Source: Solwaraspora sp. WMMD792 (GTDB taxonomy: Bacteria; Actinomycetota; Actinomycetes; Mycobacteriales; Micromonosporaceae). Taken from it: DNA of 64,000 nucleotides. The position numbers were made by a program, and so were the translations under genes. Positions 5,782 to 62,965 of this stretch are shown here, in pieces (within the stretch, counting starts at the first letter, position 1; the number at the start of each line of letters is the position of its first letter). The notes under the pieces are model-generated. The model did not search any database, was not told where the DNA came from, and saw only the letters and a program-made list of their open reading frames with translations. The stretch is from assembly GCF_029626105.1 (NCBI RefSeq), contig NZ_JARUBH010000009.1, positions 1,116,001-1,180,000 on the forward strand. The letters are read 5' to 3'.

Positions 5782-5812
5782 CGCCCGGGTCGGTCAGTCC
5801 AGTCGCGGTCGG

Positions 5813-7063: not shown

Positions 7064-7090
7064 CGACAAACGGGGGGAAGAGGGGGACAC

Positions 7091-7117
7091 GCGGCGACCT
7101 CGACACGAGGTCGCCGC
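7091..7117 (+). terminator. Hairpin terminator after DUF4193 gene
   Basis: A 12-bp perfect stem (7091-7102 with 7106-7117) around a 3-nt loop lies 28 bp after the stop codon. There is no U-tract, which is usual for high-GC actinomycete terminators. Confidence 0.6.
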
Positions 7118-7158
7118 AGTCGCCGTGACCGCGTCCGGCCGTCGGCTCTGGAGGCAGC

Positions 7159-7983
7159 ATGACCGATCCCGACCGTTCCGCGCCGGACGGCGACCGGGCC
7201 GGGACCGACCGGTTCGCCGCCACAGTGGCCGAACTGACCGGGGACGCGACTCCGCCGGTCGACCGGCGACGCCTGCTCGGGCGGCTCGTGGAACAACTGC
7301 GTCGGCGCGGCGTGACCGAGCTGTTCAAGCCGGCGGCGGCGGGCCGGTGGCTGGTCCAGGCGGTGGCCGACGTCGCCCCGTACCTCCCGGTCCGCGACCT
7401 GGCCACGTTGCGCCGGCACCATCCGGGCCTCGACGACGAGGAACTGGCCGAGCGGTTGATCCGCAACGCCAGCCGGGTCAGCGCCGGGATCGGCGCGGCG
7501 GGTGGCGGCGTCTCGGCGGTCCAGTGGACCGTCACCCCGACCCTGCTGTCCGCGCCGGTACTGCTGGCTGCCGAGACGGTCGCCGTCGTGGCCGTGGAGC
7601 TCAAACTGGTCGGCGAGCTGCACCAGGTGTACGGCGTACCGGTGCCCGGCGCCGGCACGGAACGCGCCGTCAACATGATCCACGCCTGGGCCAACCAGCG
7701 GGGCGTCAACCCGATGGTGCCCGGTGTCGGAGTGGGCGCGGTGCTCGGTACCGCGGCCCGTCGCGAGCTGGGCGAGCTGCTGCTCCGCCGGTTCGGCCGC
7801 AACCTCACCACCCTCGGCCCGTTCCTGACCGGCGCGGCGGTGGCCAGCTACCTCAACCGTCGGGCGACCCGGGCTCTCGCCGACCGCGTCCGCGCCGACC
7901 TGCGCAGCCAGCGGCGGGCGCTCGGTCTGATGCATCCGCCGGCTCCACCGGCGATCGGGGGCGTGCGCCCACGGCCCGAATGA
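7159..7983 (+). CDS. Conserved hypothetical protein with hydrophobic core
   Basis: This 274-residue protein of unknown function starts with a polar N-terminus. A helical segment (RRLLGRLVEQLRRRGVTELF) is followed by two Gly/Ala-rich hydrophobic stretches (about 112-155 and 190-240) that could insert in or associate with a membrane (SAGIGAAGGGVSAVQW, LLSAPVLLAAETVAVVAVEL). The second part reads GVGVGAVLGTAARRELGELL. No catalytic motif is apparent. ATG at 7159 with GGAGGCAG upstream. It lies on the plus strand between DUF4193 and the minus-strand DUF3093 gene. Confidence 0.75.
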   Translation: MTDPDRSAPDGDRAGTDRFAATVAELTGDATPPVDRRRLLGRLVEQLRRRGVTELFKPAAAGRWLVQAVADVAPYLPVRDLATLRRHHPGLDDEELAERLIRNASRVSAGIGAAGGGVSAVQWTVTPTLLSAPVLLAAETVAVVAVELKLVGELHQVYGVPVPGAGTERAVNMIHAWANQRGVNPMVPGVGVGAVLGTAARRELGELLLRRFGRNLTTLGPFLTGAAVASYLNRRATRALADRVRADLRSQRRALGLMHPPAPPAIGGVRPRPE

Positions 7984-7993
7984 TCCGGGCGTC

Positions 7994-8650
7994 TCAGCTG
8001 GCCGGCGGGTCGGCAGTGGCGCCGCCATCCGTCGCGCGGTCACCGGTCGCGCCGGCTGCCTGGCTCTGCTGGGCGGCGCGGATCTCGCCGGCCAACCGGA
8101 CCGGGTCCCGGGTGCTCACCACCCAGTACGGCGTGGGGTCCGCCGGATCGTCCAGTACGACCTGTACGGCGCCGGCGATCCACGGCCGTTGGATGACGAA
8201 CGCCAGTGGGTCGGCGCCTACTCCGAGCAGTTCCCGGCGCCCGTCCCCGTCCAGGGCGACGACCTCGGCGACGTACCGCAGGGGAAGTCGGGCGTCGTCG
8301 ACCTGAAGTTCGTCCGAGGTGACCCGGATCGGGATTCGCCCCAGCCACCACAGGCCGGCGACGGTCGACGGCAGCAGCACACTGAACGGCAGCCAGGCCC
8401 GGACCCCGGAGGTGCCCATCCAGACCTCGGCCGCCAGGAAGGCCGCGAGCGCCGACCCGCCCACCCAGAGCCACCACGGCAGGCGGAGTCGCTCCCGGTA
8501 GTGCACGACGGCCCGGTACGGTGTGTCGGGTTCGGCGGAAGCGGGTGCCACGTCGTCCGAGGGTACGGGCCCGGCAGCGGGGTGTGTTCGGCGGCCTGTG
8601 GTCTGCAGAGGTCGTCCCGGTCGGCGGTGGCGGAGAGGGTGGGGGTCCAT
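7994..8650 (-). CDS. DUF3093 family membrane protein
   Basis: The protein of about 218 residues has two adjacent membrane spans after [13 protein letters not shown] (about residues 50-90), then a soluble domain with [21 protein letters not shown] and [13 protein letters not shown] typical of DUF3093. Function is unknown; it belongs to the dut neighbourhood as in M. tuberculosis (Rv2698). The start is uncertain. The ATG at 8650 overlaps the divergent dut start codon by two bases, so a shorter form from a GTG at 8551 is plausible because the conserved domain begins after it. Confidence 0.85.
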
Positions 8651-18694: not shown

Positions 18695-21265
<2,571 letters not shown>

Positions 21266-21522
21266 TCACTCTTCAGGTGAGAGCTGGCCAGCGGCGATGC
21301 GTGTCCGTGGCCGGCGGGGGACGTTTGGTGACGCTAAGCGGACGGCCAACCACACAGGTGGCGCGGAGAGTGCCGACTGCCGTCGGCGTCGGCGTCGGCG
21401 TCGGGCACCTGAGCTAGTTGGGGGAGCCGGTGTGGGTGTTCGGGTGCCTCGGTGCTGAAGCACCATGCCGGTGAATCGGTCATATCTGCACTGTTTCGAA
21501 CATGTCCTCCAAAGCCGGCTAA

Positions 21523-21538
21523 GTGTTAGCGTTAACAC
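21523..21538. promoter_or_regulatory. LacI-family-type operator upstream of the xylanase gene
   Basis: GTGTTAGCGTTAACAC is a 16-bp palindrome with one mismatched pair and the central CG typical of LacI-family operators. It lies about 290 bp before the GH10-GH62 start and downstream of an AT-rich -10-like stretch on the minus strand. The LacI regulator at 24609 is the obvious candidate to bind it. Confidence 0.6.
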
Positions 21539-21543
21539 GCCAA

Positions 21544-21572
21544 TCGATGTATCTAGATTTTCAGAAACTTCC
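21544..21572 (-). promoter_or_regulatory. Promoter-like region with GAAA/TTTC element, xylanase gene
   Basis: On the minus strand GGAAGTTTCTGAAAATC (21556-21572) precedes TAGATACA and the 11-mer AGATACATCGA (21544-21554). The same 11-mer occurs upstream of the GH5 gene at 24150-24160. The GAAA/TTTC pattern resembles cis elements known upstream of actinomycete xylanase genes. Exact promoter assignment is uncertain. Confidence 0.4.
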
Positions 21573-21959
21573 GGAGTTGGCAAGCGGTGGATTCCGGCCA
21601 TGACTGCTCGTGGTTGTCGACCGCGTTGCCCGGCCTGTCGGCCCGTGGTGCGCTCCCTGGGCCTCCTCGATCGGATCGGTGGCCTGGCTGTGCTCTCTTC
21701 TGAGCTGGACCTTCCTATCCAGCCACAGTGGATACAAGTGGCTGTTGAGGGTGTCGGCGGAGGCAGCCGAGGTGCCGCGCGGCTCTGCCTTCTCATGGGC
21801 ACGCTGCCGGCGGCATTCGTCGCGCGACCCCGTCGCACTTCGAGAAAACGGCTCGAGTTACCGGAAACGTTGCGGACAGTGCGCCCGCAGTGACTGGTCA
21901 GCCGTGGGCGCCGGGCCATTGACGCCGGCAACGGGCAGACAACGGCAGGCGACATGCAT

Positions 21960-21994
21960 CGACGGGGCCGCGACGATCCGTCGCGGCCCCGTCG
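21960..21994 (-). terminator. Hairpin terminator of the GH5 gene
   Basis: A perfect 16-bp GC-rich stem (21960-21975 with 21979-21994) around a 3-nt loop begins 14 bp after the GH5 stop codon. No U-tract, as usual in this genome. Confidence 0.75.
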
Positions 21995-22008
21995 AACTAC
22001 GGATCAGG

Positions 22009-24129
22009 TCAGCTGGCCTGCCCGGTAACCGAGCTGCCGTCCTTGGTGAGGTGGTAGGTGACCTGGGTGCCACTCCAGAAGTGGAAGGTGAGGGTGACCG
22101 GGCCGTCGGTCACCTCGGCGAAGAACTCGGGCTTCAGGATGATCGTGTTCGCGTCGTAGTCGGGTTGGAAGTGGGTCCAGAACTCCTTGTACGGGGTCCA
22201 GTTGGCCGGCCCGGCGGGACTGCCGTCGGCATACTCGGCCTCCATCGTGGCGAGTTGGTCACCGTGGAACTCGGTGGGAATCGCGAACGAGTTGGTCGTG
22301 CCGGTGGCCGCTGCCTGGGTCGGTGGGTCGTAGCTGATGATGCTGATCTGCCACGGCACGCCGGCGGAGAACCGAGCCTCGATGGTGGCGTTGACCCCCT
22401 GGGTGCGGTCGCCGACCAGCCGGTTCATCGCCGGCCGGGTCAGGGTGAGGGTATCCCCGGAGACCGTGTAGTCGGTGCCGTCGACCAGTCGGGTGTCGCC
22501 CTGCCACAGGCTGCGGAACGAGAGGCCGTTGCGGTTGAGGGTGAGCGTCCTGCTGGTGACGGCGCCGGCGCGGTCCACGTAGATCTGGTCCGAGGAGGCC
22601 GTGGCGGATCGGGTCGTCAGGTTCGCCATCATCAGCTGGTAGATGCCCTGGTCCCGCCACCGCAGCTCGGGGCGGTGCAGGAAGGAGCCCGCGTCCCACA
22701 ACATGGTGGTGAGGTTCCTGATCCGAGCGTGGTATCCGACGGCCTCGAAGAACTTCAGCAGTTCGCCCCGCTCGATGATGCCGGGCCGGGTGTAGTCGTA
22801 GCTGAGCAGGGCCCACTCGCCGATGACCACCGGGATGTCGCGGGAGATGAAGGTGTCGTACGCCCGATCGAAGGTGTTGAGAATGTCCTGCTCGACGTTG
22901 CTGTCGTACCGGGTGCCGCCGGCGATGTTGACGCTGAACGGCCACCAGCCGTAAAAGTGGATGGTCGCGGCGAGGTTGGGGTCGTCCAGTTCGTCGAACG
23001 TGCCGAGGAGGGCGTCCATCCGGGCCTGCTCGCCGCTGGTGTGCAAGGTGGGCAGCACCAGCAGCCGGGTGGCGTTGTTTCCGTCGGTCTGCCGTACGAG
23101 GCGGACGAATTCGACGTTGAGCTCGTGCAGTAGCTGGTCGCTCTCGGTGTCGCCGGACGTGCCGGCGAACTGCGGCTCGTTGATGCTCTCGAACACGAGC
23201 TTCCGCGAGTGGCCCCGGAAGGAGGTGGCGACCTGGGTCCAGAGGGCGCGGTACCGGTCCATGACTCCGGCGCGGTCAGTCGGGTAGGTGTTGATCCACT
23301 GCCAGGAGTCGTGATGCAGGTTGATCATCACGTAGAAGCCCTCCGCCAGTGACCAGTCCACCACCTCGTGGATGCGGTTCAGCCAGGCGGGGTCGATGGT
23401 GTAGTCAGGCGCGGATCCGTGGTGGTTGCTCCAGGTGATCGGGATCCGGATGCTGTTGTACCCCTGGGTGCGTAGGTGGTGCAGCATCGCCCGGGTCGTT
23501 CGTGGATTTCCCCACGAGGTCTCGTCTGGGATGGCGTCGAACGTGTTGCCCAGGTTCCAACCGGGCTGCATCGCGGCCACCATCGCCATCGGGTCGCCCG
23601 GCTGCGGCGTCGGCGAGACTGACGGCGAGACCGATGGCGAGACCGATGGCGAGACCGACGGCGACGGGGAGATGCTGGGGGTCGGTGTCGCGGTGGGGCT
23701 GACGTTCCCTGTGCAGGCGACGCCGTTGAGTGAGAACGCGGTGGGCGGGGTGTTGCTGGTCGACCAGGCTCCGTTGAAGCCGAACGAAACCGTCGCGTTG
23801 GTGGCGATGGTCGCGTTGTAGCTCATGTTGGTCGCGGTGACCTGGCTGCCCGCCGAGGTGACCGTCGCGTTCCAGGGATGGGTCACCCGCTGGCCGGACG
23901 GGAACGTCCAGGCCAGATCCCAGCCGTTGATCGGGTCACCGAGGTTGGTGACGTTCACGTTGGCGGTGAAGCCACCTGGCCACTGGGCCGAGACGGCGTA
24001 GGCCACCCGGCATCCGGCCGCGGCCTGCGCGCTGGTGGTCACCACCACCCCGGCCAGCAGTAGTGCGGCCATTCCACCTGCGACGACGCTGGCCCGCCAG
24101 GGGATCTTCCGGACGCTGTGCGAACTCAT
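22009..24129 (-). CDS. Secreted GH5 endoglucanase with N-terminal CBM2 and C-terminal X2-like domain
   Basis: The 706-residue cellulase has a signal peptide (about 1-36). CBM2 (about 39-139, with cysteines C40 and C139 forming the family disulfide) is followed by a Ser/Pro linker with SPSV repeats (142-178). The GH5 catalytic domain (about 180-505) has PGWNLGNTFDA, acid/base E318 (SINEPQF) and nucleophile E438 (VVIGEWAL). A C-terminal immunoglobulin-like X2-type region follows (about 516-610), then a last beta-rich module to residue 706. It likely cleaves cellulose or glucan outside the cell. The ATG at 24129 follows GGAG; the upstream 60-codon extension is low-complexity and rejected. Confidence 0.92.
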   Translation of the reverse strand: MSSHSVRKIPWRASVVAGGMAALLLAGVVVTTSAQAAAGCRVAYAVSAQWPGGFTANVNVTNLGDPINGWDLAWTFPSGQRVTHPWNATVTSAGSQVTATNMSYNATIATNATVSFGFNGAWSTSNTPPTAFSLNGVACTGNVSPTATPTPSISPSPSVSPSVSPSVSPSVSPTPQPGDPMAMVAAMQPGWNLGNTFDAIPDETSWGNPRTTRAMLHHLRTQGYNSIRIPITWSNHHGSAPDYTIDPAWLNRIHEVVDWSLAEGFYVMINLHHDSWQWINTYPTDRAGVMDRYRALWTQVATSFRGHSRKLVFESINEPQFAGTSGDTESDQLLHELNVEFVRLVRQTDGNNATRLLVLPTLHTSGEQARMDALLGTFDELDDPNLAATIHFYGWWPFSVNIAGGTRYDSNVEQDILNTFDRAYDTFISRDIPVVIGEWALLSYDYTRPGIIERGELLKFFEAVGYHARIRNLTTMLWDAGSFLHRPELRWRDQGIYQLMMANLTTRSATASSDQIYVDRAGAVTSRTLTLNRNGLSFRSLWQGDTRLVDGTDYTVSGDTLTLTRPAMNRLVGDRTQGVNATIEARFSAGVPWQISIISYDPPTQAAATGTTNSFAIPTEFHGDQLATMEAEYADGSPAGPANWTPYKEFWTHFQPDYDANTIILKPEFFAEVTDGPVTLTFHFWSGTQVTYHLTKDGSSVTGQAS
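23615..23662. repeat. Four 12-bp tandem repeats in the GH5 linker
   Basis: Four near-identical copies of GAGACCGATGGC encode the SPSV linker repeats. Coding microsatellites like this vary in copy number between strains. Confidence 0.85.
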
Positions 24130-52150: not shown

Positions 52151-53020
52151 TCAGACCGGTACGGTAACGATCGCGGTGGCGACCCCGGACTGGTCGACCG
52201 CCTGGAACTGGATCCGTTCGATGTCGTCCCGGGGTGCCGCCGTCGACGTGCTCAGCAGCAACGGCGCGGGTTGCTCCGCGGTGCCGTACCCGGCCTCGGG
52301 CACCGTCCAGGTGGAGAGCACCTCGGCGGTGCCGGAAGCCCGCAGCACCACGATCCGGCACTGCATCGGACCTGGCACCCGGCGTAGCGCGAACGACACC
52401 TGGGTGCCCCACGCGGCTTCCTCCAGCACCACGTCCGCCTCCACCCCGGTGGTGGGGTCGACCGCGTTGAACTTCTCGCCGGTGACCTCCGGACCACCGA
52501 CCCCGGACTGCGGATCGACCGGTGACGGGCTGGCCGAGACCGACGTCTGCGGCCCGGCCTGCGGTGTCGCCGAACCATCTGACCAGGCCGACCCGGCGAA
52601 GAACGAGAAACCGGTGAGCGTCGCCAGCAGCACGAACCCGGCGGCGATCTGTAGCGGGCGGCCCGCGAACAGCCGTCGGGACCTACCGGCGTGGCCGAGC
52701 GGACGGACCTGACCGTGGTCGCGACGCTGGTCGGCGTCGGACCGCACGGTCGGCCGGATCGGTACCGGCGCGCCGCTGTCGCCGTCGTCCGCCCCACCAG
52801 CCCGGTTCACACCGGTGGGGCCGGACTGAGGGAGGACGGGGCTGTCCTCCAACTGGTCGATGTCTACGGTGGACATCAACCCGACGATCGGAATGAGTGA
52901 CTCCAGCTCTGCCGCGCAGGCCCAGCAGCCGGCGAGATGCTCCTCGAACCGCTCGACGTCGTCGGCATCGAGTGCGCCGAGCGCGTACGCTCCGACGTCC
53001 CAGTGGGCGGACCGTGTCAT
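52151..53020 (-). CDS. Zinc-binding anti-sigma factor, membrane-anchored
   Basis: The 289-residue protein has an N-terminal cytoplasmic ZAS-like domain with H28-x3-C32-x2-C35 (EEHLAGCWAC). A Pro/Asp-rich linker leads to one membrane span (about 121-142, LQIAAGFVLLATLTGFSFF) and a C-terminal extracytoplasmic domain (DPTTGVEADVVLEEAAWGTQVSFALRRV) that probably senses envelope or oxidative signals. The ATG at 53020 overlaps the sigma-factor TGA (ATGA). The Cys-based motif is the type often redox-sensitive. Confidence 0.92.
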   Translation of the reverse strand: MTRSAHWDVGAYALGALDADDVERFEEHLAGCWACAAELESLIPIVGLMSTVDIDQLEDSPVLPQSGPTGVNRAGGADDGDSGAPVPIRPTVRSDADQRRDHGQVRPLGHAGRSRRLFAGRPLQIAAGFVLLATLTGFSFFAGSAWSDGSATPQAGPQTSVSASPSPVDPQSGVGGPEVTGEKFNAVDPTTGVEADVVLEEAAWGTQVSFALRRVPGPMQCRIVVLRASGTAEVLSTWTVPEAGYGTAEQPAPLLLSTSTAAPRDDIERIQFQAVDQSGVATAIVTVPV

Positions 53021-53712
53021 TCTGTAACCCCCCGCTGTTGCAGCGCCGTCCGCAGCGCTCGTAGCGCGTAGTAGACCCGCGACTTGGCGGTACCCAGTGG
53101 CAGCCCTAGCTCCGCGGCCGCCTCCGGGACCGTGCGGCCGCGGAAGTACGTCTCGACCAGGATCTCCCGGTGCGGCTGGCTGAGCGTGCGCAACGCGTCG
53201 GCGACGGTCATCTGCCGCAGCACCTGATCGGTGCCGTCGGACTCGGCGAAGCTCTCCAGATCCCGGTCGTACTCCTCGGTCGGTCGGGCCTTCTCGCTGC
53301 GGTGGTCGTCGATCGCGATGCGTCGGGCGACGGTCACCAGCCACGGTCGCAGCGACGCCTGGCCCTGCGCGCCGAGCCGGTGGGCGTTGCGCCACGCCCG
53401 CAGCAGTGTCTCCTGGACGATGTCCTCGGCCCGTTGCCGGTCCCCCCCGGTGAGCCGTAACACGAATCCCAGCAGCGGCCGGGCGTGCTCTGCGTACAGT
53501 GTGCGGACGAGATCGTCCCCGTGGCTGGACTCCGCTGTCCCGGCCTGCTGCCGGCTCCCTGCGGTCCGTGGCGTCACCGGCTCATCATCGCGCTCGGCCG
53601 CCCTCCCGTCGATGCTCTGCCAACGTTGCGTACTGCGGGCCGTGGCCGAACCGTTGCCGGTCGCCCCCGGCCGGATCCTCTCCGCCTGCCAGCCGCTGGC
53701 GACCGCGTACAT
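53017..53712 (-). CDS. ECF-family RNA polymerase sigma factor
   Basis: The 231-residue sigma factor has region 2 (LYAEHARPLLGFVLRLTGGD, RAEDIVQETLLRAWRNAHRL, WLVTVARRIAIDDHRS) and region 4 (LRTLSQPHREILVETYFRGRTVPEAAAELGLPLGTAKSRVYYALRALRTAL). It is co-translated with the anti-sigma gene, as in SigL/RslA-type pairs. The ATG at 53712 is preferred for its GGAGGT Shine-Dalgarno; an N-terminal extension of about 65 residues is not homologous to the core and may be disordered. Confidence 0.92.
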   Translation of the reverse strand: MYAVASGWQAERIRPGATGNGSATARSTQRWQSIDGRAAERDDEPVTPRTAGSRQQAGTAESSHGDDLVRTLYAEHARPLLGFVLRLTGGDRQRAEDIVQETLLRAWRNAHRLGAQGQASLRPWLVTVARRIAIDDHRSEKARPTEEYDRDLESFAESDGTDQVLRQMTVADALRTLSQPHREILVETYFRGRTVPEAAAELGLPLGTAKSRVYYALRALRTALQQRGVTE

Positions 53713-53790
53713 CGCAGGACCTCCATCCGACGTCGACATGGCCCGCGGCTGGGGGCCCACCCCGAGGTACGGAGCCGCCCGGCGGACGGA

Positions 53791-54648
53791 TCAACGTCCG
53801 CCGGGAAAAATTCCGTCCGGTGGCGGCGGCGACGGCTGCGCGGTCGCGTCGGCGATCGGCGACGCCGTCCCGATCAACCGGTCCAGCGCCGCAGTATGCA
53901 GCACCCGGCTGGGAAACCAGTCACCGGCGGCCCGCCGGGTCAGCTCTCCGACGTCCGGCGCGGCGCGTCCGGCGACCACCACCAGATTGCCGTACCGGCG
54001 CTGGCGCAGCACCGCCGCGTCGGCGATCAGGCAGATGCCGGGCAGCACCTGCCGTACCGACGCCAGATGCTGGCGGGCCCAGCCCAACGGCGGGCCGTCC
54101 GCCACGTTGGACAGCAGCTGACCGCCGGGTGCGAGTACCCGGGCGACCTCGGTGACGAACTCGACCGAGGTCAGCCGTGCCGGAGTGCGGGCACCGGCGA
54201 ACACGTCCGCGATCACCAGGTCGTAGCTGTCCGTACGAGCCTGCTCGACGGCGGACCGCGCGTCACCGACCCGGACCCGCAGATTGCGGTCGGCCGGCCA
54301 GGGCAGTTCGCGGCGGACCAGCTCGGTCAACGCGGCGTCGATCTCCACCACCCGCTGGCTCGACCCGGGACGGGTGGCGGCCAGGTAGCGCGGCAGGGTC
54401 AGCCCACCGCCGCCCAGGTGCAGCACCCGCAGCGGGGCACCGGCCGGGGCGGCCAGGTCGATCGCTGCGGCGATCCGGCGGACGTACTCGAACTCCAGGT
54501 GTGTCGGATCGTCGAGATCGACGTGTGACTGCTGGGTGCCGTCCAACAGCAGGGTGTACGCCCGCCGCCGGTCCGGGTCCGGGACGAGCCGCGCGGTGCC
54601 GGTGTCTACCTGGACCGCGGGCGGCGCTGTCCTGCGGGTACGGCCCAT
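53791..54648 (-). CDS. Spermidine-synthase-like SAM methyltransferase-fold protein
   Basis: This 285-residue Rossmann-fold protein has VLHLGGGGLTLPRYLAATRPG (SAM/dcSAM-binding loop), RVVEIDAALTELVRRELP, RVRVGDARSAVEQARTDSYDLVIADVF and SNVADGPPLG. The DAR-x-D and VIADVF segments match the spermidine synthase family, but the N-terminal beta-strand domain is reduced. Whether it makes a polyamine is unknown. The Pro-rich C-terminus (SPPPPDGIFPGGR) is disordered. ATG at 54648. It lies 16 bp downstream of the nurA gene on the same strand and may be in that operon. Confidence 0.82.
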   Translation of the reverse strand: MGRTRRTAPPAVQVDTGTARLVPDPDRRRAYTLLLDGTQQSHVDLDDPTHLEFEYVRRIAAAIDLAAPAGAPLRVLHLGGGGLTLPRYLAATRPGSSQRVVEIDAALTELVRRELPWPADRNLRVRVGDARSAVEQARTDSYDLVIADVFAGARTPARLTSVEFVTEVARVLAPGGQLLSNVADGPPLGWARQHLASVRQVLPGICLIADAAVLRQRRYGNLVVVAGRAAPDVGELTRRAAGDWFPSRVLHTAALDRLIGTASPIADATAQPSPPPPDGIFPGGR

Positions 54649-54664
54649 CGGCACAGTATGCCGG

Positions 54665-55684
54665 TCACCGCCACGCCGGACTCTCCTGCCCGGCCGCCGA
54701 GAGGCTGAGCGCCCGGTGCAGCAGCCGGGCGTCGCCGAGCATCGCCCGCAGCCGTCGCTCCAGCCCGGCGATCGGCACCAGGTTCTGCGGTGCCCGGGGG
54801 TCCTTGTACGGAGCCGAGGCGAACCGGGGCAGCGTCGCCAGCGTGAGGTCGGCCAGCGCGATCGCCGCCTGCGGCGTCAGGTCTGGCCGGCACTCCACCC
54901 GGACGATGCCCGCCCACGGCGCGCCCCGCGGTCCGGGCAGCCGCAGATACCACGAGTAGCTGCGCCACCGGGTGCCGCGCAGGAAGACCGGGCTGCGTTC
55001 CGCCGGTTGCAGCGCGGTCACCACCGGGATCAGACTCGCCGGCAGGTACGGCTGGCGCTGCGACTTGACGTAGCCGACCGTGTTCGGCAGCCGGCGCCCG
55101 CGCAGCGGACCGTCCACCACCAGCAGATCCGCCGGGTCGTCCGCGCCGTCGGCGCGGGCCTGCTCGGAGACGGCGATCTCCAGCGCGGCCAGCGCCGGCT
55201 GCACCGCCTGCGGCAGTACGGCCGGATCGGCGTCGTCGACCCGCCGCGCCGGATAGCGCACCCGCCCGACGACCAGGTCGGTGGCGGCGGTGCTCGGCGT
55301 GAACAGGCCCCGCTCGGTACGGGCTCCGGCCAACCGGGCAGCCCCGCGCCGCAGGTCACAGCGCACCACACCGGCGGCGTACGAGGCGGCCAGCGCCGGG
55401 TACGAGACTCCGTCGGGCTCCTCGCTCCACAACGAGGCGTCGATCCGACGCACCCCGTCGACCAGCAGCACCACGTCCGGTGCGCGCACGTCGGCCGGCT
55501 GGCGCAACGGCCGCCACGCCGCCGGATCCAGCTCCACGGCGAGGTCGGCGGCGTCCTGACCGTCGTCGGCGGCGCCGGGGCCACCCGGGTCGGCGGCCTC
55601 GAACGACGTGCCGTAGCCGGGTTGCCAGCCCTCGACGAACCAGCGGACCCCGGTGGCCGGCCGGCCCGTCACGGTCGCGGTCAC
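54665..55684 (-). CDS. nurA: NurA-like nuclease (DNA end resection)
   Basis: The 339-residue protein fits the NurA family by layout. Early DVVLLVDGVRRIDASLW supplies Asp near residue 76; DLLVVDGPLRGRRLP supplies Asp near 191; GYVKSQR a Lys near 207. A C-terminal beta-rich section follows (SWYLRLPGPRGAPWAGIVRVE). NurA is a 5'-3' single-strand and double-strand DNA exonuclease that works with HerA. The GTG start overlaps the sbcC TGA (GTGA) and the gene is last in the herA-sbcD-sbcC-nurA operon, strengthening the call. The family assignment is a reading of motifs plus context, not a search result. Confidence 0.75.
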   Translation of the reverse strand: MTATVTGRPATGVRWFVEGWQPGYGTSFEAADPGGPGAADDGQDAADLAVELDPAAWRPLRQPADVRAPDVVLLVDGVRRIDASLWSEEPDGVSYPALAASYAAGVVRCDLRRGAARLAGARTERGLFTPSTAATDLVVGRVRYPARRVDDADPAVLPQAVQPALAALEIAVSEQARADGADDPADLLVVDGPLRGRRLPNTVGYVKSQRQPYLPASLIPVVTALQPAERSPVFLRGTRWRSYSWYLRLPGPRGAPWAGIVRVECRPDLTPQAAIALADLTLATLPRFASAPYKDPRAPQNLVPIAGLERRLRAMLGDARLLHRALSLSAAGQESPAWR

Positions 55685-58170
55685 AGCCCGCTCCGCCGGA
55701 CCCGGGCCGTACGGGCGTCCTTGCTGACCTCGAACCGGACCGGTACCCGCTCGGCTAGCGCCGGGACGTGGGTCACCAGGCCGACCATCCGGTCACCTCG
55801 GGCGGCGAGCCCTTCCAAGGTCGCGGCGACGGTGTCCAAGGTGGCCGCGTCCAGTGAGCCGAAGCCCTCGTCCAGCACGATCGACTCCAGACTGGCGGCG
55901 CTGGCCGACATCCCGGCCAGTTGTTCCGACAACGACAGGGCGAGCGCCAGCGACGCCTGGAAGGTCTCCCCGCCGGACAGGGTGCGTACCCCGCGGCGCA
56001 GTCCGGCGTCGTGGTGGTCGACGACGAAGAACTCACCGGCGTCGTGCACCAGCTCGTACTGACCGCTGGAGAGCTCCCGCAGGATCCGCGACGCGCCGTC
56101 GACCAGCAGGTCCAGCGCCTCGACCAGCAGCCACCGCTCGAAGTTGTTGGCCCGCAGGTGCCCGGCCAACGTCCGGGCCAGCTGGGCCTGCCGCTCCTGG
56201 TCGGCCCGCCGGCCGCGCAGCTCACCTGCCTGGGCGAACCGTTCGGTGATCCGTTCGTGGTCGGTCTGCGCCCGCTGGACCGCCAGCGCGGCCGCCTGCC
56301 GGTAGCCGGCCGGATCGGCACCGGCCGGCGGTGCCAGCTCGGCGGCGACGAACAGCGCGTCGATGTCGGCGGCGACGCCGCTGGCCGCTGACCGGGCCGA
56401 AGCCAGCCGAGCGTCCGCCTCCGCCCGCGCCGTGCGGCGCTCGGCGAGCAACTGGTGCGCCCAGTCGGTCAGTAGCGTCCACGCTGCGGCCAGATCGGTG
56501 CGGTCGGCGGCCGGTGGCGCCAGCCGGGCGACGGCGTCCCGGCCGGCGTCGAACTCCCGCCAGCCGGCCTGCAGCCGCTGTTCGCCGGTCACGGCGGCGC
56601 GTTGCGCCTGACGGGCCGCCTCCCGGGCCCGGCGGACCTGGCCACCGGCGTCGTCGAGGGCGCGCTGTAACCGGTCGACCGTGGCCAGATCGGTGCGCAA
56701 CGCGTCGGCGCCGGGCGAGTCGGACAACCGGGCGTCGAGTTGCGCCAGCCGGGCGGTCAGCTGCTCTGCCCGTACCCTGGCCCGGTCGACGGCCCGCTCC
56801 ACCCCGCGCAGCGACTGCTCGGCCTCGGTGACCGCCTGGCGGGCCTGGTCGGCGGCGGCCCGGGCGGCCTGACCGGCGGACTTCGCCTCGGCGACCCGGG
56901 ACCCAGCCGGCACCGGCGGCACCGTGCTCACCGGCTGCGCGCAGACCGGACAGTCCGCCCCGGCGACGAGCTCGTGGCGTAACGCGGCGGCCAGGTCGGC
57001 GGACTGCGCCTCCTGGTACGTCTGCCGGGCGCGGTCCAACTCGCGGTCCGCCGCCTCGGCGGCGGACCGGGCCGACCGCAGCGCCGCCTGGCTGGCGACC
57101 TGTTCGGCCTGCGCGGCGGCGAGCGCCGGAGCCAGCTCGGCCGATTCGGCGGCGACCCGGTCCCGTTCGGCGTGTGTCTGCAGCAGCAGCCGCCGGTCGG
57201 CCGGGTCACCGATGGCGGCCAGTTCGGCGCGGACCTTCTCCTCGCGTTCCTCGGCGTCGGCGACGGCCCGGTCCGCGTCGACGGCGGCGACCCGGGCGGC
57301 CGCCGCCTGATCGGCCAGCCGGGCGGCAGCCGCCGGTGCGGCGACGCCGGCCAACAGCCCGACCTCGTCGTCCAGGGCCGTCACCTGGTCGGCCGCGGTC
57401 GCCACCGCCTGCTGGGCCTGCGCCAACCGGGGCAGCGCGGCGTCGACCGCGGTCGCCAACGCCCGCATCGCGTCGACCTGACCCGCCGCGGCCGCCACCG
57501 CCGCCTCGTCGGCGTCGGCGAGGCCGCCGAGCAGCTGGTCCACCGCCGCCACCGCCGCCTCGGCGGCCCCCGCCCGGGCGGTGGCCCGCTCCCGGACGCG
57601 TTCGTAGACGTGCAGCCCGAGCAGGTTGACCAGGATCTGCTGGCGGGTGGCCGGCTTGGCGTGCAGGAAGTCGGCGAACCGGCCCTGCGGCAGCAGCACG
57701 CAGGTGGTGAACTGCTCGTACGGCAGCCCGACCGCGTCCAGCACGGCCTGCTCCATCTCGGCAGGCGTGCCGGCCAGCACCTCGCCGAGATCGTCCGGGC
57801 TCATCCCGGTGTCCAGCCGGGTCACGTCGAACCCGGGCGGCATCAACTGCAGGCCGGCGTTGCCGGTCTTGACCGCGCCCCGCGAGTCGCGGCGGATCAC
57901 CCGGGTGGCGACGTAGCGGCTGCCGGCGCTCTCGAACACCAGCCGCACCCGGGCCTCGGTGGCCGACGGTGCCAGCGCGGAGGCGATGCCCCGGCTGCTG
58001 CCCCAGCGCGGCACCACGCCGTACAGGGCGAAACAGATCGCGTCGAGGATGCTGGACTTGCCCGACCCGGTCGGCCCGACGAGGGCGAAGAAGTCGGCGT
58101 CGGTGAAGTCGACCGTGGTCTCCTCCCGGAACACGGTGAATCCGGCCAGGTCCAGCCGTAGCGGCCTCAC
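55681..58170 (-). CDS. sbcC: Exonuclease SbcC (Rad50-like SMC ATPase)
   Basis: The 829-residue protein has an N-terminal P-loop GPTGSGKSSILDAI (about 32-45) and a long Ala/Arg-rich coiled coil. The zinc-hook CPVC lies at about residue 406, and a second coiled coil follows. The C-terminal head has signature LSGGETFQASLALALSLSEQ (about 728) and Walker B SIVLDEGFGSLDAATLDTV (about 762). With SbcD it forms the Mre11-Rad50-type complex that processes DNA ends and hairpins. GTG start overlaps sbcD TGA (GTGA); its own TGA overlaps nurA (GTGA). Confidence 0.97.
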   Translation of the reverse strand: MRPLRLDLAGFTVFREETTVDFTDADFFALVGPTGSGKSSILDAICFALYGVVPRWGSSRGIASALAPSATEARVRLVFESAGSRYVATRVIRRDSRGAVKTGNAGLQLMPPGFDVTRLDTGMSPDDLGEVLAGTPAEMEQAVLDAVGLPYEQFTTCVLLPQGRFADFLHAKPATRQQILVNLLGLHVYERVRERATARAGAAEAAVAAVDQLLGGLADADEAAVAAAAGQVDAMRALATAVDAALPRLAQAQQAVATAADQVTALDDEVGLLAGVAAPAAAARLADQAAAARVAAVDADRAVADAEEREEKVRAELAAIGDPADRRLLLQTHAERDRVAAESAELAPALAAAQAEQVASQAALRSARSAAEAADRELDRARQTYQEAQSADLAAALRHELVAGADCPVCAQPVSTVPPVPAGSRVAEAKSAGQAARAAADQARQAVTEAEQSLRGVERAVDRARVRAEQLTARLAQLDARLSDSPGADALRTDLATVDRLQRALDDAGGQVRRAREAARQAQRAAVTGEQRLQAGWREFDAGRDAVARLAPPAADRTDLAAAWTLLTDWAHQLLAERRTARAEADARLASARSAASGVAADIDALFVAAELAPPAGADPAGYRQAAALAVQRAQTDHERITERFAQAGELRGRRADQERQAQLARTLAGHLRANNFERWLLVEALDLLVDGASRILRELSSGQYELVHDAGEFFVVDHHDAGLRRGVRTLSGGETFQASLALALSLSEQLAGMSASAASLESIVLDEGFGSLDAATLDTVAATLEGLAARGDRMVGLVTHVPALAERVPVRFEVSKDARTARVRRSGL

Positions 58171-59324
58171 GACGAGGTCACCTCCTCGTACAGCGTGTCG
58201 AACAGGGTCCGTACGTCGTCGTCGCCGTGCCCGCGCGCGTCCAGGTAGTCGGCGAACAGTTGCCCGGGTGCCCGGCCGGCCCGCTGCGGGGTGCGCGTCG
58301 CACCGGCGGCGGACGCGGACCGGGCGAACTCCGGGTCGATGCGCACGTCCAACGCCCGGGGCAGCAGTGCCTGCACCTCCTCACGCAGCCCGGCCCGGGG
58401 TGTCTCCCGGATGAACACCCGCAGCCAGGCGTCGCCGTACTCGCCGGCGGCCAGTTCGTCGAGGGTGCCGCGGACGGTACGCAGCGGGGTCGCGGCGTCC
58501 ACCGGTACCTCGCGTACCCGGGCGGCGGTGCCGGCGGTGACGTCGACGATGCTGACCGACCCGACGTTGTCCTCCTCGCCGAAGTCGATGGGCAGCGGAC
58601 TGCCGCTGTAGCGCACCGGGCAGGGCGCTTCGAGCTGCTGGGCGCGGTGCAGGTGGCCGAGCGCCACGTAGTGCGCCCCGGTCGGGAAGACGGTGGCCGG
58701 TACGGCGTACCCGAGGACGGTGTGCACCTCCCGCTCGCCGCCGCCGGACCGCCCACCGACCACGGTCAGGTGGGCGGTGATCAGATCGACCACACCGGGC
58801 TCACCGAACCCTTCGGTGAGCCGGGCGAGCACCCGTCCGATGTGGTCGGCGTACGTCTGGTTGGCCTCGGCCGCGGTCAGTTGATACATCTCGGTGGCCC
58901 GGACGGCGTACCGCTGGGACAGGAACGGCAGCGCGACCAGCCGCCACCGTTCGCCGTCACCGGTGGTGCCGGTGATCACGTGCTCGTCCGGGGTGTCCCG
59001 GACGGCGCCGCGCATGGTGATGCCGGCGGCGTCGGCCCACGGCCGCAGCGCGTCCAGCGCGGCCCCGTTGTCATGGTTGCCGCCGATCGCCACCACGTCG
59101 GCGCCGGTGCCGCGCAACGCGGTCAACGCCCGGGTGACCACCCGGGTGGCGTCCGGTCCGGGAGCGGAGGTGTCGTACAGGTCACCGGCGACGATCACCA
59201 GGTCCGGGCGTTCGGTACGGGCGATCTCGACCACCCGGGCGAGCACCTTGATCTGCTCGGGCAACCGGGCCTGTCCCTTGAGGACCTTGCCGACGTGCCA
59301 GTCGGAGGTGTGCAGGATCCGCAT
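58167..59324 (-). CDS. sbcD: Exonuclease SbcD (Mre11-like phosphoesterase)
   Basis: The 385-residue Mn2+-dependent nuclease has all five phosphoesterase motifs: HTSDWHVGKVLKG, VIVAGDLYDTSAP, IGGNHDNGAAL, LITAHLTVVGGRS and VALGHLHRAQQ, followed by a capping domain. It is the nuclease subunit of SbcCD. The ATG at 59324 has GGAGG upstream. The gene lies 43 bp downstream of herA and overlaps sbcC. Confidence 0.97.
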   Translation of the reverse strand: MRILHTSDWHVGKVLKGQARLPEQIKVLARVVEIARTERPDLVIVAGDLYDTSAPGPDATRVVTRALTALRGTGADVVAIGGNHDNGAALDALRPWADAAGITMRGAVRDTPDEHVITGTTGDGERWRLVALPFLSQRYAVRATEMYQLTAAEANQTYADHIGRVLARLTEGFGEPGVVDLITAHLTVVGGRSGGGEREVHTVLGYAVPATVFPTGAHYVALGHLHRAQQLEAPCPVRYSGSPLPIDFGEEDNVGSVSIVDVTAGTAARVREVPVDAATPLRTVRGTLDELAAGEYGDAWLRVFIRETPRAGLREEVQALLPRALDVRIDPEFARSASAAGATRTPQRAGRAPGQLFADYLDARGHGDDDVRTLFDTLYEEVTSS

Positions 59325-59367
59325 CCGGGGGAACCTCCTCGACCTCAGGGTCAGAACGGCAGAACGG

Positions 59368-61113
59368 TTAGAACGGGATGTCGTCGTCGCCGGTGGACCG
59401 GCCGCCGACCACCGCGAACGGGTCAGCGGCCTGCACGATCGAGCGCAGTGTGCCCGACGGCGCGTCGCCGGCCTCCGACGAGCGGGTGGCCCAGGCCGGG
59501 AACGGGAACTCCAGGCACAGCGGGACCGGGATGTCCGGCTGGTTGACGAACATCGTGCCCGGCTTGGCCAGCAGCACCCGCTGCCGCTGCACCGCCGGCA
59601 GGAAGCCGTACTCCGGCCGGGACGCCTCGGCCGGGTCGAGCCGGCCGACCACCCGGACCGCCGAGTTGGTGACGATCCGCCGCTCCACCTCGCTGGCGGT
59701 CTGCTGGGCACCGATCAGGATCACCCCGAGCGAGCGGCCCCGCTCGGCGATGTCGAGCAGCACCTCCTTGATCGGCGACGACCCGTCCCGGGGGGCGTAC
59801 TTGTTGAGCTCGTCGAGCACGACGAACAGCAGCGGCTTGGCGGTGCCGGCCCGCTCCTTGCGCTCGAACTCGCCCTTGAGGGTCACGCCGACCACGAACC
59901 GCTGTGCCCGGTCCGGCAGGTTGTGCAGGTCGACGACGGTGACCTGGGCGCTCTCGGCGGTGTTGATCTGGTGCGGGCGACGGGCGGCCAGATCGCCGCG
60001 AATCAGCCGGGCCAGGTCGCGTTTGCTGCTGATCAGCCGGCGGGCGAAGGCGTTCACCGTGCCCATGCCGACCGCCGAGCCGGCCCACGCCGCCCGGGTC
60101 TCCTCGTCGCCGAGCTGGTCGACGATGTGGTCGACCAGATCCCCGTACGAGCCGATCCGTCGGCCGTCGATGCTGATGCCGCCGTCGGCCGGCTGCGCGT
60201 GCCGGTGCAGGTACGCGGTGACCGCGTGCACCACCATCGTGTACTGCTGGCGTTCGTCGTCGGCGTCGGCGAACACGTACGGCAGCAGCCGCTGGTCGCA
60301 GAACTCGGCGACCGTCCAGTAGAAGCTGTCCACGCCGGTGAGCCGGCTGGTCACGTCGGGGGTGCCGGAGGCGTCGCCGGCGCGCGGCGGGGCGTACACC
60401 CGTACGTCCGGGAAGGCGCCGGCGGGCAGGCCGAGCTTGGCGTACGCGGCGGTCGTCGCCTCGTCGAGCCGGACGTTGGGATGGTCGAGGAAGAGCAGGT
60501 CCTCGCCCTTGACGTTGAAGATCAGCGCCTTGGCGTTGACCGCGTCGCCGCCGAGAGTGCCGGAGCGGAACACCGAGTAGAGCAGGAACGTGGCGAAGCT
60601 GGTCTTGGTGGCGACGCCGGAGATGCCGGAGATGGACACGTGTGCGCCGCGCTGGCCGTCGAGGAAGTCGGCGTTGAGGTAGACCGGCACCCCGTCGCGG
60701 CCGGTGCCCATCGGGATCCGGCGCTCCATCCGGTCGAAGTGCAGGGCGCGGGCGCGGGCGTCGCCTTCGGCCCGCCACACCGGGGCGCCCGGCTCCGGCG
60801 GTACGTAGATCTCCGGATCGACCCGGGTGGCGGTGATCTCGGCGGCCTCCTGCACCTGGGCGGGCAGGGTGCCGTCGGCGATGGCGAACACGTCGGAGTC
60901 GAACTGCGCCCCTTCGTGGCGGGCCCGGACCTGGGTGACCACCCCGGCGATGGTCACCGGCTCGGTGCCCGGCAGCTCGCGGCGGGTCACCACGACGTCG
61001 TCCAGTTGCAGATAGCTGCCGGGGCCGACCGCGGTCCAGAACTGCAGTGGGGTGGCGTCGGCGGTACCCAGCACCCGGCCCACCGGCGCACCCTCCGGTG
61101 TTGTGTCACTCAT
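59368..61113 (-). CDS. herA: HerA-like bipolar DNA helicase/translocase
   Basis: The hexameric HerA/FtsK-type ATPase has about 581 residues. An N-terminal HAS-barrel-like beta domain (PVGRVLGTADATPLQFW onward) precedes the ATPase, with Walker A GISGVATKTS (about 163-172), Walker B LLFVVLDELNKY (D434-E435) and a downstream sensor GAQQTASEVERRIVTNSAV. In archaea HerA pumps DNA for NurA during end resection. The start is uncertain: ATG at 61113 begins the domain; an ATG at 61164 is also open. It heads the operon ending in nurA. Confidence 0.9.
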   Translation of the reverse strand: MSDTTPEGAPVGRVLGTADATPLQFWTAVGPGSYLQLDDVVVTRRELPGTEPVTIAGVVTQVRARHEGAQFDSDVFAIADGTLPAQVQEAAEITATRVDPEIYVPPEPGAPVWRAEGDARARALHFDRMERRIPMGTGRDGVPVYLNADFLDGQRGAHVSISGISGVATKTSFATFLLYSVFRSGTLGGDAVNAKALIFNVKGEDLLFLDHPNVRLDEATTAAYAKLGLPAGAFPDVRVYAPPRAGDASGTPDVTSRLTGVDSFYWTVAEFCDQRLLPYVFADADDERQQYTMVVHAVTAYLHRHAQPADGGISIDGRRIGSYGDLVDHIVDQLGDEETRAAWAGSAVGMGTVNAFARRLISSKRDLARLIRGDLAARRPHQINTAESAQVTVVDLHNLPDRAQRFVVGVTLKGEFERKERAGTAKPLLFVVLDELNKYAPRDGSSPIKEVLLDIAERGRSLGVILIGAQQTASEVERRIVTNSAVRVVGRLDPAEASRPEYGFLPAVQRQRVLLAKPGTMFVNQPDIPVPLCLEFPFPAWATRSSEAGDAPSGTLRSIVQAADPFAVVGGRSTGDDDIPF

Positions 61114-61286
61114 GGTGATGGACTGGTCGCTGAAGTCCGGTTGCGTCGTGCCCACGGGTTGCATCCTGCCCCACGGGTACGACCAGTACGGCATCCGACT
61201 CGGCGCGGCCGGCTGAATTCGCCGACGGTGGGTTTCGGTCGACCCGATCCGCTGCCCTCAGGTGATCATTGCCTGACTCACAGTGA

Positions 61287-62087
61287 CTATCCGGTGGTGG
61301 TCGGGTCGGGCCGGGTGTAGCGGAGCAGCAGCGTGCCGTCGTCGGCGGCCAGCACCTGGCCCAGCCGTAGCTGCCGCACCGGGCTGGCCGGACCCGCGCT
61401 GATCCGGCCGGCACCGGCACCGGCGAGCAGCGGGGATACCGTCAGGCAGAGTTCGTCGACCAGGTCGGCGGCGGTCAGCGAACCGAGCAGCATCGGACCA
61501 CCCTCGCAGAGCAGCCGACGGTGGCCACGGGTGCGCAGCTGGCTCAGTCCGGCGGTCAGATCGAGGGTGCGCTCGCCGGCCGGGACGATCTCCGCGACCC
61601 GGGCCAGTCGACGTCGCCGTTCGGCCGGCGCGTCGGTCGTGGTGAGCACGATCGGCCGCGTCGGTGCGTCGGCCAGGGCCGGTTGGTCCGGGTCGAGATC
61701 GAGCGAGGCGGAGACGACGACCAGGGTGGGATGGGTGGGTAGGCCGTGCTGCCGGCGCCAGCGGCGGCGCCGGTCGTCCAGCCGCAGCGCCCGGTACTGC
61801 TCCTGGCGCAGGGTGCCGGCACCGACCAGCAGCGCGTCGCAGAGCATCCGTAGTACGCCGAAGACCCGTTTGTCCGCGCGTCCGGACAACCCGGCGGACC
61901 GGCCGGCCACCGCGACCGCCCCGTCCACGCTGGTCACGAAGTTCACCCTGAGCTGGTCGTGAGGCGCGACGGCGTACGCCTCGATCAGGGCCGGGTCGTC
62001 CAGCACGGACCCGGCCGGCTGTGGCCCGAACCGGCGGACCGGCGGGTCCGGGGTCCGCGCGTCCGGGGCCGGTGGGTGGTCGGTCAT
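61287..62087 (-). CDS. RibD C-terminal-type pyrimidine reductase family protein
   Basis: The 266-residue protein has the RibD_C/DHFR-like reductase pattern: VNFVTSVDGAVAVAGRSAGLSG, ADKRVFGVLRMLCDALLVGAGTLRQEQY, LLCEGGPMLLGSLTAADLVDELCLTVSPLLAG. This resembles the NADPH-dependent reductase of riboflavin synthesis, without the deaminase domain. ATG at 62087 is used; no Shine-Dalgarno is obvious. It could act in riboflavin or folate-like chemistry; the substrate is not determinable. Confidence 0.88.
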   Translation of the reverse strand: MTDHPPAPDARTPDPPVRRFGPQPAGSVLDDPALIEAYAVAPHDQLRVNFVTSVDGAVAVAGRSAGLSGRADKRVFGVLRMLCDALLVGAGTLRQEQYRALRLDDRRRRWRRQHGLPTHPTLVVVSASLDLDPDQPALADAPTRPIVLTTTDAPAERRRRLARVAEIVPAGERTLDLTAGLSQLRTRGHRRLLCEGGPMLLGSLTAADLVDELCLTVSPLLAGAGAGRISAGPASPVRQLRLGQVLAADDGTLLLRYTRPDPTTTG

Positions 62088-62235
62088 TCGCCGGCCGGAC
62101 CGGTGACCGGTGGAGTCGGAGCGGGGGTACGGTGCTGACAGTCGCACCAGTTACCACCCCGACACCCATCGTGCTGGCCTCTCCGGCACGCAGCGCAGAT
62201 CATGGGTTCGAGCCTAGGTCAGAGAAAGGGCGGCC

Positions 62236-62781
62236 ATGCCCCGTCAGATCTTCCACCTGCTGGTCACCCTGTCCGACATCGCGCCGCCGGTGTGGCGCCG
62301 CGTCCAGGTGCCGGGCGGGTACACGCTCGACCGGGTGCACCGGGTGATTCAGCACGCGATGGGCTGGCGCGACTGCCACCTGCACTCGTTCGAGATCAAC
62401 GGAGCGCAGTACGGCGAGCCGGATCCGGCCGGGGAACTGCTGCTGCGTGACGAACTGGACACCCGGTTGGACGCCGTGGCCACCAAGGGGGCCCGGTTCC
62501 GCTACACGTACGACTTCGGTGACTGGTGGGAGCACGACGTCGTCGTCGAGGACGTCACCGCGCCCGAACCGGACGTGCGCTATCCGCTCTGTGTCGACGG
62601 GGACCAGGCGTGCCCCCCAGAGGACGTCGGTGGTGCCTTCGGGTACACCGAGTTCCGGGCCGCGATCGCCGATCCGGCGCATCCGCGTCACGCCGAGATG
62701 GCCGACTGGGTGAGCGCGACGTTCGATCGGTTCGGGTTCGACCCGGCGCGGGTCACCACCCTGCTGCGCCGGCTGACCTGA
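62236..62781 (+). CDS. pRiA4b ORF-3 family protein
   Basis: The 181-residue protein matches the plasmid pRiA4b ORF-3 family: FHLLVTLSDIAPPVWRRVQVPG, LDRVHRVIQHAMGWRDCHLHSF, then FRYTYDFGDWWEHDVVVEDV and PLCVDGDQACPPEDVGGAFGY. The family is often plasmid- or island-borne and of unknown biochemical role, rich in His/Cys/acidic residues that could hold a metal. ATG at 62236 with AGAGAAAGGG upstream. Confidence 0.93.
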   Translation: MPRQIFHLLVTLSDIAPPVWRRVQVPGGYTLDRVHRVIQHAMGWRDCHLHSFEINGAQYGEPDPAGELLLRDELDTRLDAVATKGARFRYTYDFGDWWEHDVVVEDVTAPEPDVRYPLCVDGDQACPPEDVGGAFGYTEFRAAIADPAHPRHAEMADWVSATFDRFGFDPARVTTLLRRLT

Positions 62782-62861
62782 CCACCCGGTCGGCCTGACC
62801 ACCCGGTCGGCCTGACCACCCGGCTGACCTGACCACCCGGTCGGCCTGACCGCCGGGCCGG
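62777..62861. repeat. Five 17-bp tandem repeats
   Basis: The unit CCTGACCACCCGGTCGG occurs exactly at 62777, 62794 and 62828; units at 62811 and 62845 are diverged at their 3' side. The first unit overlaps the stop codon region of the pRiA4b gene. This is a candidate variable-number repeat. Confidence 0.85.
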
Positions 62862-62914
62862 CCGGGCCGACCTGAATCTGACCCGGGAGCGCCCGGGATT
62901 CGGCAGTAACGAAA

Positions 62915-62928
62915 TGGGAACGCTCCCA
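62915..62928 (+). promoter_or_regulatory. CebR-like operator 1 (upstream of -35)
   Basis: TGGGAACGCTCCCA differs by one base from the 14-bp CebR palindrome TGGGAGCGCTCCCA. It ends 8 bp before the -35 box. Confidence 0.85.
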
Positions 62929-62936
62929 TCGGCCTC

Positions 62937-62965
62937 TTGACACCTCCGAAACCTCCCGGCAATCT
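62937..62965 (+). promoter_or_regulatory. Promoter of the cebE-like operon
   Basis: TTGACA (62937-62942) and CAATCT (62960-62965) are separated by exactly 17 bp. The -35 is perfect; the -10 keeps A2 and T6. The two operators bracket this promoter. Confidence 0.75.

Follow-up and report, generated by a model that had tools for sequence, protein, structure and literature searches.

A chromosomal herA-sbcD-sbcC-nurA cassette conserved across Micromonosporaceae, probably a second machine for trimming broken DNA

The four-gene operon for DNA end resection that joins HerA, Mre11, Rad50 and NurA functions is generally regarded as archaeal, and Deinococcus and Thermus have a version with two genes. 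Here, we analyze a stretch of 64,000 nucleotides (the window, always meant at its full length) from the actinomycete Solwaraspora sp. WMMD792, of the family Micromonosporaceae, in which the same four functions lie adjacent on one strand. The cassette resides on a 7.2 Mb contig of a 7.4 Mb genome and is therefore chromosomal. All four genes are read from the minus strand: herA (59368-61113, 581 amino acids (aa)), encoding a hexameric FtsK/HerA-type DNA translocase of the Deinococcus type; sbcD (58167-59324, 385 aa), encoding a bacterial SbcD (Mre11-like) metallophosphoesterase; sbcC (55681-58170, 829 aa), encoding a bacterial SbcC (Rad50-like) ATPase; and nurA (54665-55684, 339 aa), encoding a NurA-type nuclease. 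A spacer of 43 bp (59325-59367) separates herA from sbcD, and 4-nt GTGA overlaps join the open reading frames of sbcD and sbcC (58167-58170) and those of sbcC and nurA (55681-55684). The frames and their homology bear out the gene names and order given in a preliminary description of this DNA, and the coordinates agree with its 43 bp gap and two overlaps. That description had also taken the overlaps as a mark of a dedicated machine, a view that does not hold: such overlaps are ordinary, and among the named loci of the family (the best 80 of 292 in a genome scan, with HerA 86-90% identical) the sbcD/sbcC junction has a 4-nt overlap in just 5 of 79 and a possible 1-nt overlap in 70. Gene identities, catalytic residues, linkage, co-divergence and the promoter motif in relatives were all computed in this analysis.

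The HerA protein shows full-length homology to HerA of Deinococcus radiodurans (PDB 7f6d_B; E 1.2e-145, phmmer). Functional residues of the D. radiodurans proteins (drHerA and drNurA), mutation of which has been reported to abolish activity (PMC9960219), were matched to the window proteins by hand counting on phmmer alignments, with constant offsets (0 for HerA and 20 in chain numbering for NurA). By this means, drHerA K175, T176, D220, D487, E488, R495 and R552 correspond to K170 and T171 of the Walker A motif (GISGVATKTS, around residues 163-172), D205, the Walker B residues D434 and E435, R442 and R499. Alignments of relatives to the window protein, comprising here and for the other proteins rows that cover more than 70% of its length, show K170, D205, D434 and E435 kept in 162/162 rows, T171 in 161, R442 in 154 and R499 in 152. 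A threonine replaces the glycine before the Walker A lysine in all 162 rows (ATKT in 156), as in D. radiodurans HerA. Pfam offers no noteworthy match to the protein, and those in NCBIfam all fall below cut-off (best 17.4 bits); the HerA model of NCBIfam, for which the cut-off is 970, gives 12.3 bits.

As a single sequence, NurA matches D. radiodurans NurA (PDB 7f6d_H) at E 4e-19 with phmmer, and a profile of 31 diverse NurA sequences reaches the same chain at E 4.4e-59 and Thermotoga TM1739 at E 2.7e-25. In the phmmer alignment, drNurA D53, K201 and R309 correspond to D76, K207 and R297, which, together with D191, are invariant in 134/134 aligned rows; the catalytic aspartate, of the kind whose absence the preliminary description would have taken as a refutation, is present in the 339-residue protein. 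A chance or mis-called frame, considered as an alternative, is excluded by this homology and by the invariant residues. General models are largely blind to the protein: it scores 19.5 bits in Pfam PF09376, below the gathering cut-off of 21, has no NCBIfam match, and PF09376 gave no match at E 0.001 when the genome was searched in six frames. At the same threshold PF09376 matches 6 of the 31 diverse members of this type; the model misses most of this NurA branch. The failure of Pfam and NCBIfam models to recognize either this NurA or this HerA suggests why the cassette has been overlooked.

SbcD scores 168.3 bits in the bacterial model TIGR00619 (cut-off 77.65) versus 47.2 bits in the best archaeal Mre11 model, and its residues D8, H10 and H84 are kept in 156/156 aligned rows. 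The best family for SbcC is TIGR00618, at 247.8 bits and below its cut-off of 478.5, while Pfam AAA_23 and SbcC_Walker_B are both over cut-off; the protein carries a P-loop, a signature, Walker B and a CxxC hook, and the zinc-hook cysteines C407 and C410 (CPVC) are kept in 133/133 aligned rows. Neither protein is of the archaeal Mre11/Rad50 type, as both score far higher in bacterial models. SbcC has a single match in the Solwaraspora genome, and a search with the window SbcD (E 1e-10) found the cassette SbcD as the sole SbcD match in 12/12 Micromonosporaceae examined. Elsewhere in the class, 17 cassette-bearing genomes divide into 6 with one SbcD match and 11 with another SbcD; the corresponding figures for 28 cassette genomes of other classes are 23 with one match, one with two, one with a single gene in two pieces and three with none, although hidden Markov model (HMM) searches show that these three hold a divergent cassette SbcD. 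HerA-less genomes of the class (n = 25) have an SbcD in 15 cases and none in 10.

The archaeal herA-mre11-rad50-nurA operon was reportedly described by Constantinesco in 2002 and 2004, and a contact between archaeal Mre11 and HerA is on record (PMC2288612). The term "archaeal-type", which the preliminary description applied to the Solwaraspora cluster, is appropriate for gene content, since the archaeal operon clusters the same four functions (PMC2288612, PMC12977600), but not for lineage: HerA and NurA are of the Deinococcus type, SbcCD is bacterial by the scores given above, and the NurA structure 2ygk of the archaeon Sulfolobus is reached at E 1.8 only, even with the 31-row profile. A recent transfer of the archaeal operon was considered and rejected, because the protein lineages are bacterial. 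The closest solved relatives of the window HerA and NurA belong to the D. radiodurans NurA-HerA complex (PDB 7f6d, 7wrw, 7wrx; PMC9960219), of which seven HerA and three NurA functional residues are present in the window proteins; in that species nurA and herA are handled as a two-gene operon (PMC9960219), whereas in the window they bracket sbcDC. One bacterial precedent was found in print, the hepA-sbcD-sbcC cluster of Oceanithermus profundus, in which a bacterial HerA is followed downstream by bacterial SbcD and SbcC (PMC5448004). It resembles the nurA-first arrangement of 34 Actinomycetota loci described below, although the text states nurA before hepA for Thermus and names hepA, sbcD and sbcC for Oceanithermus; it concerns one thermophile, whose SbcD and SbcC are explained as locally recruited, in a section that mentions neither Actinomycetota nor plasmids (PMC5448004). 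Our literature search found no description of a herA/nurA cassette in Actinomycetota among the papers listed, although an earlier mention in subscription papers is possible, and annotated plasmid records label herA as "ATP-binding protein" or "hypothetical protein" and nurA as "hypothetical protein", in line with the earlier remark that the system is under-described in actinobacteria.

At a threshold of E <= 1e-20, HerA was found in 120/121 Micromonosporaceae genomes and in 107/107 of those of high quality (>= 90% completeness, <= 5% contamination). It is much sparser elsewhere, occurring in 21/394 genomes of the class (three of the 21 being Micromonosporaceae) and in 63/246 genomes drawn evenly over the phylum (two being Micromonosporaceae). 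The surroundings of herA were examined in 73 of the 79 non-family HerA genomes (G245, G087, G109, G041 and G026 of the phylum set and G377 of the class set were left out) and in three divergent family members, with gene order scored by stop codons and gaps of any size allowed. The order herA-sbcD-sbcC-nurA is kept in relatives, as the preliminary description had required for its reading to stand: it occurs in 66 of the 80 named loci (nurA being cut by the contig end in three of the 66) and in 3/3 divergent family members. The other 14 named loci, 13 with herA-sbcD-sbcC and one with herA alone, all run out of covered DNA no more than 15 nt after their last gene. Among the 73 other Actinomycetota loci, 62 are ordered, 28 as herA-sbcD-sbcC-nurA and 34 as nurA-herA-sbcD-sbcC, and 11 are incomplete, including two (G075, G051) with sbcD 10-15 kb off. 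The two arrangements are one order begun at a different gene.

The cassette also occurs on plasmids. Among 72,556 annotated plasmid records, six have a HerA match, and five were examined: a linear plasmid of Streptomyces sp. BB1-1-1 and an 11.85 Mb replicon of Nonomuraea gerenzanensis labelled as a plasmid carry herA-sbcD-sbcC-nurA, and plasmids of Sphaerospermopsis, Aulosira and Chlorohelix (Cyanobacteriota, Chloroflexota) carry nurA-herA-sbcD-sbcC. On the Streptomyces plasmid, the cassette adjoins the Wadjet type II genes JetA2, JetB2 and JetC2 and a gene for an IrrE-type metallopeptidase (the whole region being L202 1-8313); an IrrE-type peptidase gene also lies upstream of the cassette on the Chlorohelix plasmid (L205 6062-6796). 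HerA matches were found in two of 50,697 phage records, and the one examined, Marinitoga camini virus 1, has nurA-herA, and neither sbcD nor sbcC lies in the 13.6 kb covered.

The four cassette proteins have diverged together. Their pairwise identities correlate with each other at 0.81-0.93 (171 pairs; 19-21 genomes), compared with 0.58-0.68 against RpoB (171-210 pairs; 19-21 genomes). In a tree of 68 SbcD rows, the cassette SbcDs of the family, of other class members, of the Streptomyces plasmid and of Nonomuraea form a starred group of 23, and a branch marked 100* parts 15 of 17 SbcDs of HerA-less class-mates from the cassette SbcDs; the tree is a quick one with SH-aLRT values only and several long branches, so that its deepest placements are unsure. 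An ordinary SbcCD around which HerA and NurA were recently inserted was considered and rejected on this separation. A recent transfer into Micromonosporaceae is likewise unsupported, the HerA tree within the class being compatible with descent and losses. Deeper transfers are likely, because family f9 holds both arrangements; the Streptomyces plasmid HerA groups with families f72/f80.

Regulation was approached through the region from 300 nt before the first gene to 29 nt beyond its start. The herA-upstream DNA of the named loci aligns poorly but for one block, which contains TGTCR-N11-NANNNT, with the same spacing as the published LexA-independent damage promoter P1/RecA-NDp (tTGTCRgtg-8-TannnT; PMC5656591). 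The motif is present in 72/78 named loci, a count that comes from close kin, versus 22/1560 dinucleotide shuffles, 1/78 on the reverse strand and 118/3900 in other windows of the same loci. Outside the family, the form with a TA-type -10, TGTCR-N11-TANNNT, occurs in 26/75 other Actinomycetota and plasmid loci, in both arrangements, versus 2/1500 shuffles, 1/75 on the reverse strand and 14/3724 in other windows. The recA genes of 17/17 scanned Micromonosporaceae genomes, Solwaraspora included, have TGTC[AG]-N11-TAGCGT upstream; these are 17 of 20 loci, the split-frame loci L257-L259 being left out. In the latter three, recA matches in two pieces within a frame of 732-771 aa, which looks like an intein. 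The motif was not found before adnA of the Solwaraspora genome, and a LexA box, the other candidate considered for herA, was found in 1/78 upstream stretches. The strict motif occurs in 9/20 further family genomes, at least one of which is probably also among the named loci. The window has a degenerate P1/RecA-NDp-like element at 61163-61184 (minus strand), GGTCG-N11-CAGGAT, which is shared with four of six same-genus relatives. Two start codons are candidates for herA, ATG at 61113 and a longer alternative at 61194; should this element act as the promoter, the latter would lie upstream of it and 61113 would be the right start. On this sequence evidence, the cassette family appears to belong to the damage regulon, a membership extended to the Solwaraspora genome from its kin, and DNA damage probably increases transcription through a LexA-independent promoter of the P1/RecA-NDp, PafBC type.

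The preliminary description had set the cassette against AdnAB as though one stood in for the other. Two adjacent frames of the Solwaraspora genome (L183:1291-4740 and 4743-8087), each with UvrD helicase and PDDEXK_1 domains, are AdnA and AdnB, so that replacement of AdnAB by the cassette is ruled out. In 56 cassette-bearing genomes searched, an AdnA match (E <= 1e-20) was found in 12/12 Micromonosporaceae, in 16/16 other class members and in 11/28 genomes from other classes, where distant matches may be other RecB-like proteins; PF12705 proved too general as a marker over the phylum, and AdnA was used instead. With AdnA in 28/28 searched cassette genomes of the class, the cassette is an addition to AdnAB there. 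The two share the same proposed task, end resection, but AdnAB is an unrelated helicase-nuclease of the UvrD/PD-(D/E)XK kind.

Around the cassette, two minus-strand frames upstream of herA (61258-62169 and 62200-62943) match nothing in Pfam, NCBIfam, PADLOC or PHROGs, and their relatives occur upstream of herA, at variable distance, in 39/80 and 64/80 named loci, respectively. On the other side, 10 bp after nurA, lies a spermidine-synthase-like gene (53791-54654, minus strand), followed by a gene for an ECF-type sigma factor (53017-53760, minus strand) that has no PADLOC match; where more than 2.5 kb beyond nurA is covered (61 named loci), the former is missing in three (Actinoplanes-like) and the latter in 12. 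Scanning the window for Rfam families and tRNA genes gave no matches. At 20001-24000, where these scans are also empty, GC content falls to 65.8% with a GC skew of 0.169.

Taken together, these observations lead us to favor, at somewhat better than even confidence, the reading of the cassette as a chromosomal, family-wide operon that processes broken DNA ends and works beside AdnAB. SbcCD is known for end cleaning. In the proposed scheme, SbcCD would bind a double-strand end and remove hairpins, adducts or bound protein to make an entry site; a HerA hexamer would then load and use ATP to pump duplex DNA into a NurA dimer, which would cut mainly the 5' strand and leave a 3' tail for RecA. Damage would raise transcription of the operon through the LexA-independent promoter before its first gene. 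We infer this biochemistry from D. radiodurans HerA-NurA and the archaeal systems, and the physical cooperation of SbcCD with HerA-NurA and the induction are inferred as well. Support comes from the translocation-driven cutting of a 5' tail reported for D. radiodurans HerA-NurA (PMC9960219) and from the UV sensitivity reported for Thermus thermophilus without HerA (HepA) (PMC5448004). The presence of HerA in every high-quality family genome fits housekeeping more than a defence island, and family-wide conservation combined with a damage-type promoter tilts the balance towards repair. A more ambitious formulation can be offered tentatively, with rather less than even confidence: that HerA-NurA-SbcCD is a transferable, phylum-crossing module with its own SbcCD lineage, which in Micromonosporaceae has turned into a second, damage-regulated resection machine that is part of the core, replaces stand-alone SbcCD, acts beside AdnAB and possibly forms one complex in which HerA is loaded via SbcD.

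A number of findings weigh against the reading as a repair operon. AdnAB alone could do the whole resection. With respect to the promoter, a TA-type -10 occurs in 0/78 named Micromonosporaceae loci, the window's own copy departs from the consensus in both halves (GGTCG; CAGGAT) and fails the strict motif, and so do all six same-genus relatives (0/6). Linkage is also imperfect, the herA-sbcD distance exceeding 400 nt in 12/77 loci outside the named set. The resection machine proposed in the preliminary description stands as a gene set, while its resection activity is putative, and the bacterial and archaeal literature on HerA-NurA is contradictory (PMC9960219, PMC4663267, PMC12977600, PMC5448004). 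In Thermococcus kodakarensis, HerA-NurA is reported mainly to degrade both strands, and an antiviral role has been suggested, as other HerA-nuclease pairs are antiviral (PMC12977600). In D. radiodurans, HerA-NurA is said to add little to radioresistance (PMC4663267), and a double deletion of nurA and herA raised resistance to UV and mitomycin C about tenfold (PMC9960219).

The T. kodakarensis result would suit a cassette for DNA destruction, in which HerA-NurA pumps foreign or linear DNA, such as phage DNA or plasmid ends, and breaks down both of its strands, and SbcCD opens ends blocked by protein or hairpins. Such a role is kept alive by the plasmid copies, one beside Wadjet II on the Streptomyces linear plasmid and three on further plasmids, and by partial-length matches to PADLOC models of the MADS defence system (SbcC to mad3 at 82.3 bits, HerA to mad8 at 31.7 bits and the gene at 53791-54654 to mad2 at 49.3 bits); the nurA-herA pair of the Marinitoga phage points the same way. 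However, the MADS matches look like shared ATPase and methyltransferase-fold domains, because mad8 also matches SbcC (25.8 bits). The best PADLOC defence HerA model gives window HerA 22.2 bits and NurA matches no PADLOC defence model, so that neither a strong defence HerA match nor a defence partner was found; the sigma-factor gene and the pair of frames that precede herA add none. Since HerA is present in 107/107 high-quality Micromonosporaceae genomes, unlike patchy defence genes, and a damage-type promoter motif precedes the first gene in many relatives, we consider this role unlikely, if a serious contender. The D. radiodurans deletion phenotype, in turn, together with the finding that DrNurA blocks HerA stimulation of RecJ (PMC4663267) and the presence of AdnAB in the same genome, would be expected if HerA-NurA were a brake or quality control on recombination, competing with RecJ or AdnAB to limit resection or remove recombination intermediates. 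Intermolecular recombination nonetheless fell in D. radiodurans herA and nurA mutants (PMC4663267, citing Cheng 2015), and the link to SbcCD is better explained by end cleaning, which makes a brake quite improbable in our view. Finally, SbcCD and HerA-NurA may be two unrelated machines that travel together and just have a damage-type promoter in common. In Deinococcus and Thermus, HerA-NurA functions with no SbcCD linked to it (PMC9960219, PMC5448004), and in 12 of 17 loci from HerA-less class-mates (L185-L201) the stand-alone sbcD is preceded by a P1/RecA-NDp-type motif, located 28-31 nt ahead of the aligned start. Moreover, the second SbcDs of two HerA-less genomes, G474 and G182, fall among the cassette SbcDs, and HerA and NurA were not found within about 9 kb of these cassette-like SbcCD genes (L238 5548-10127; L239 5683-10166), meaning that the SbcCD partnership is not strict. 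Against mere cohabitation stand the strong co-divergence of the four proteins, the separate lineage of cassette SbcD and a linkage kept across phyla in two arrangements, and we regard it as very unlikely.

The full four-gene set is a core trait of a large bacterial family of antibiotic producers, and it recurs through the phylum (63/246 genomes, with only 21/394 in the class) with an SbcCD lineage of its own. Data on HerA-NurA from Deinococcus, Thermus and archaea disagree, and Micromonospora and Salinispora offer workable hosts. For Micromonosporaceae, the cassette probably represents a second machine, so far overlooked, that trims broken DNA.

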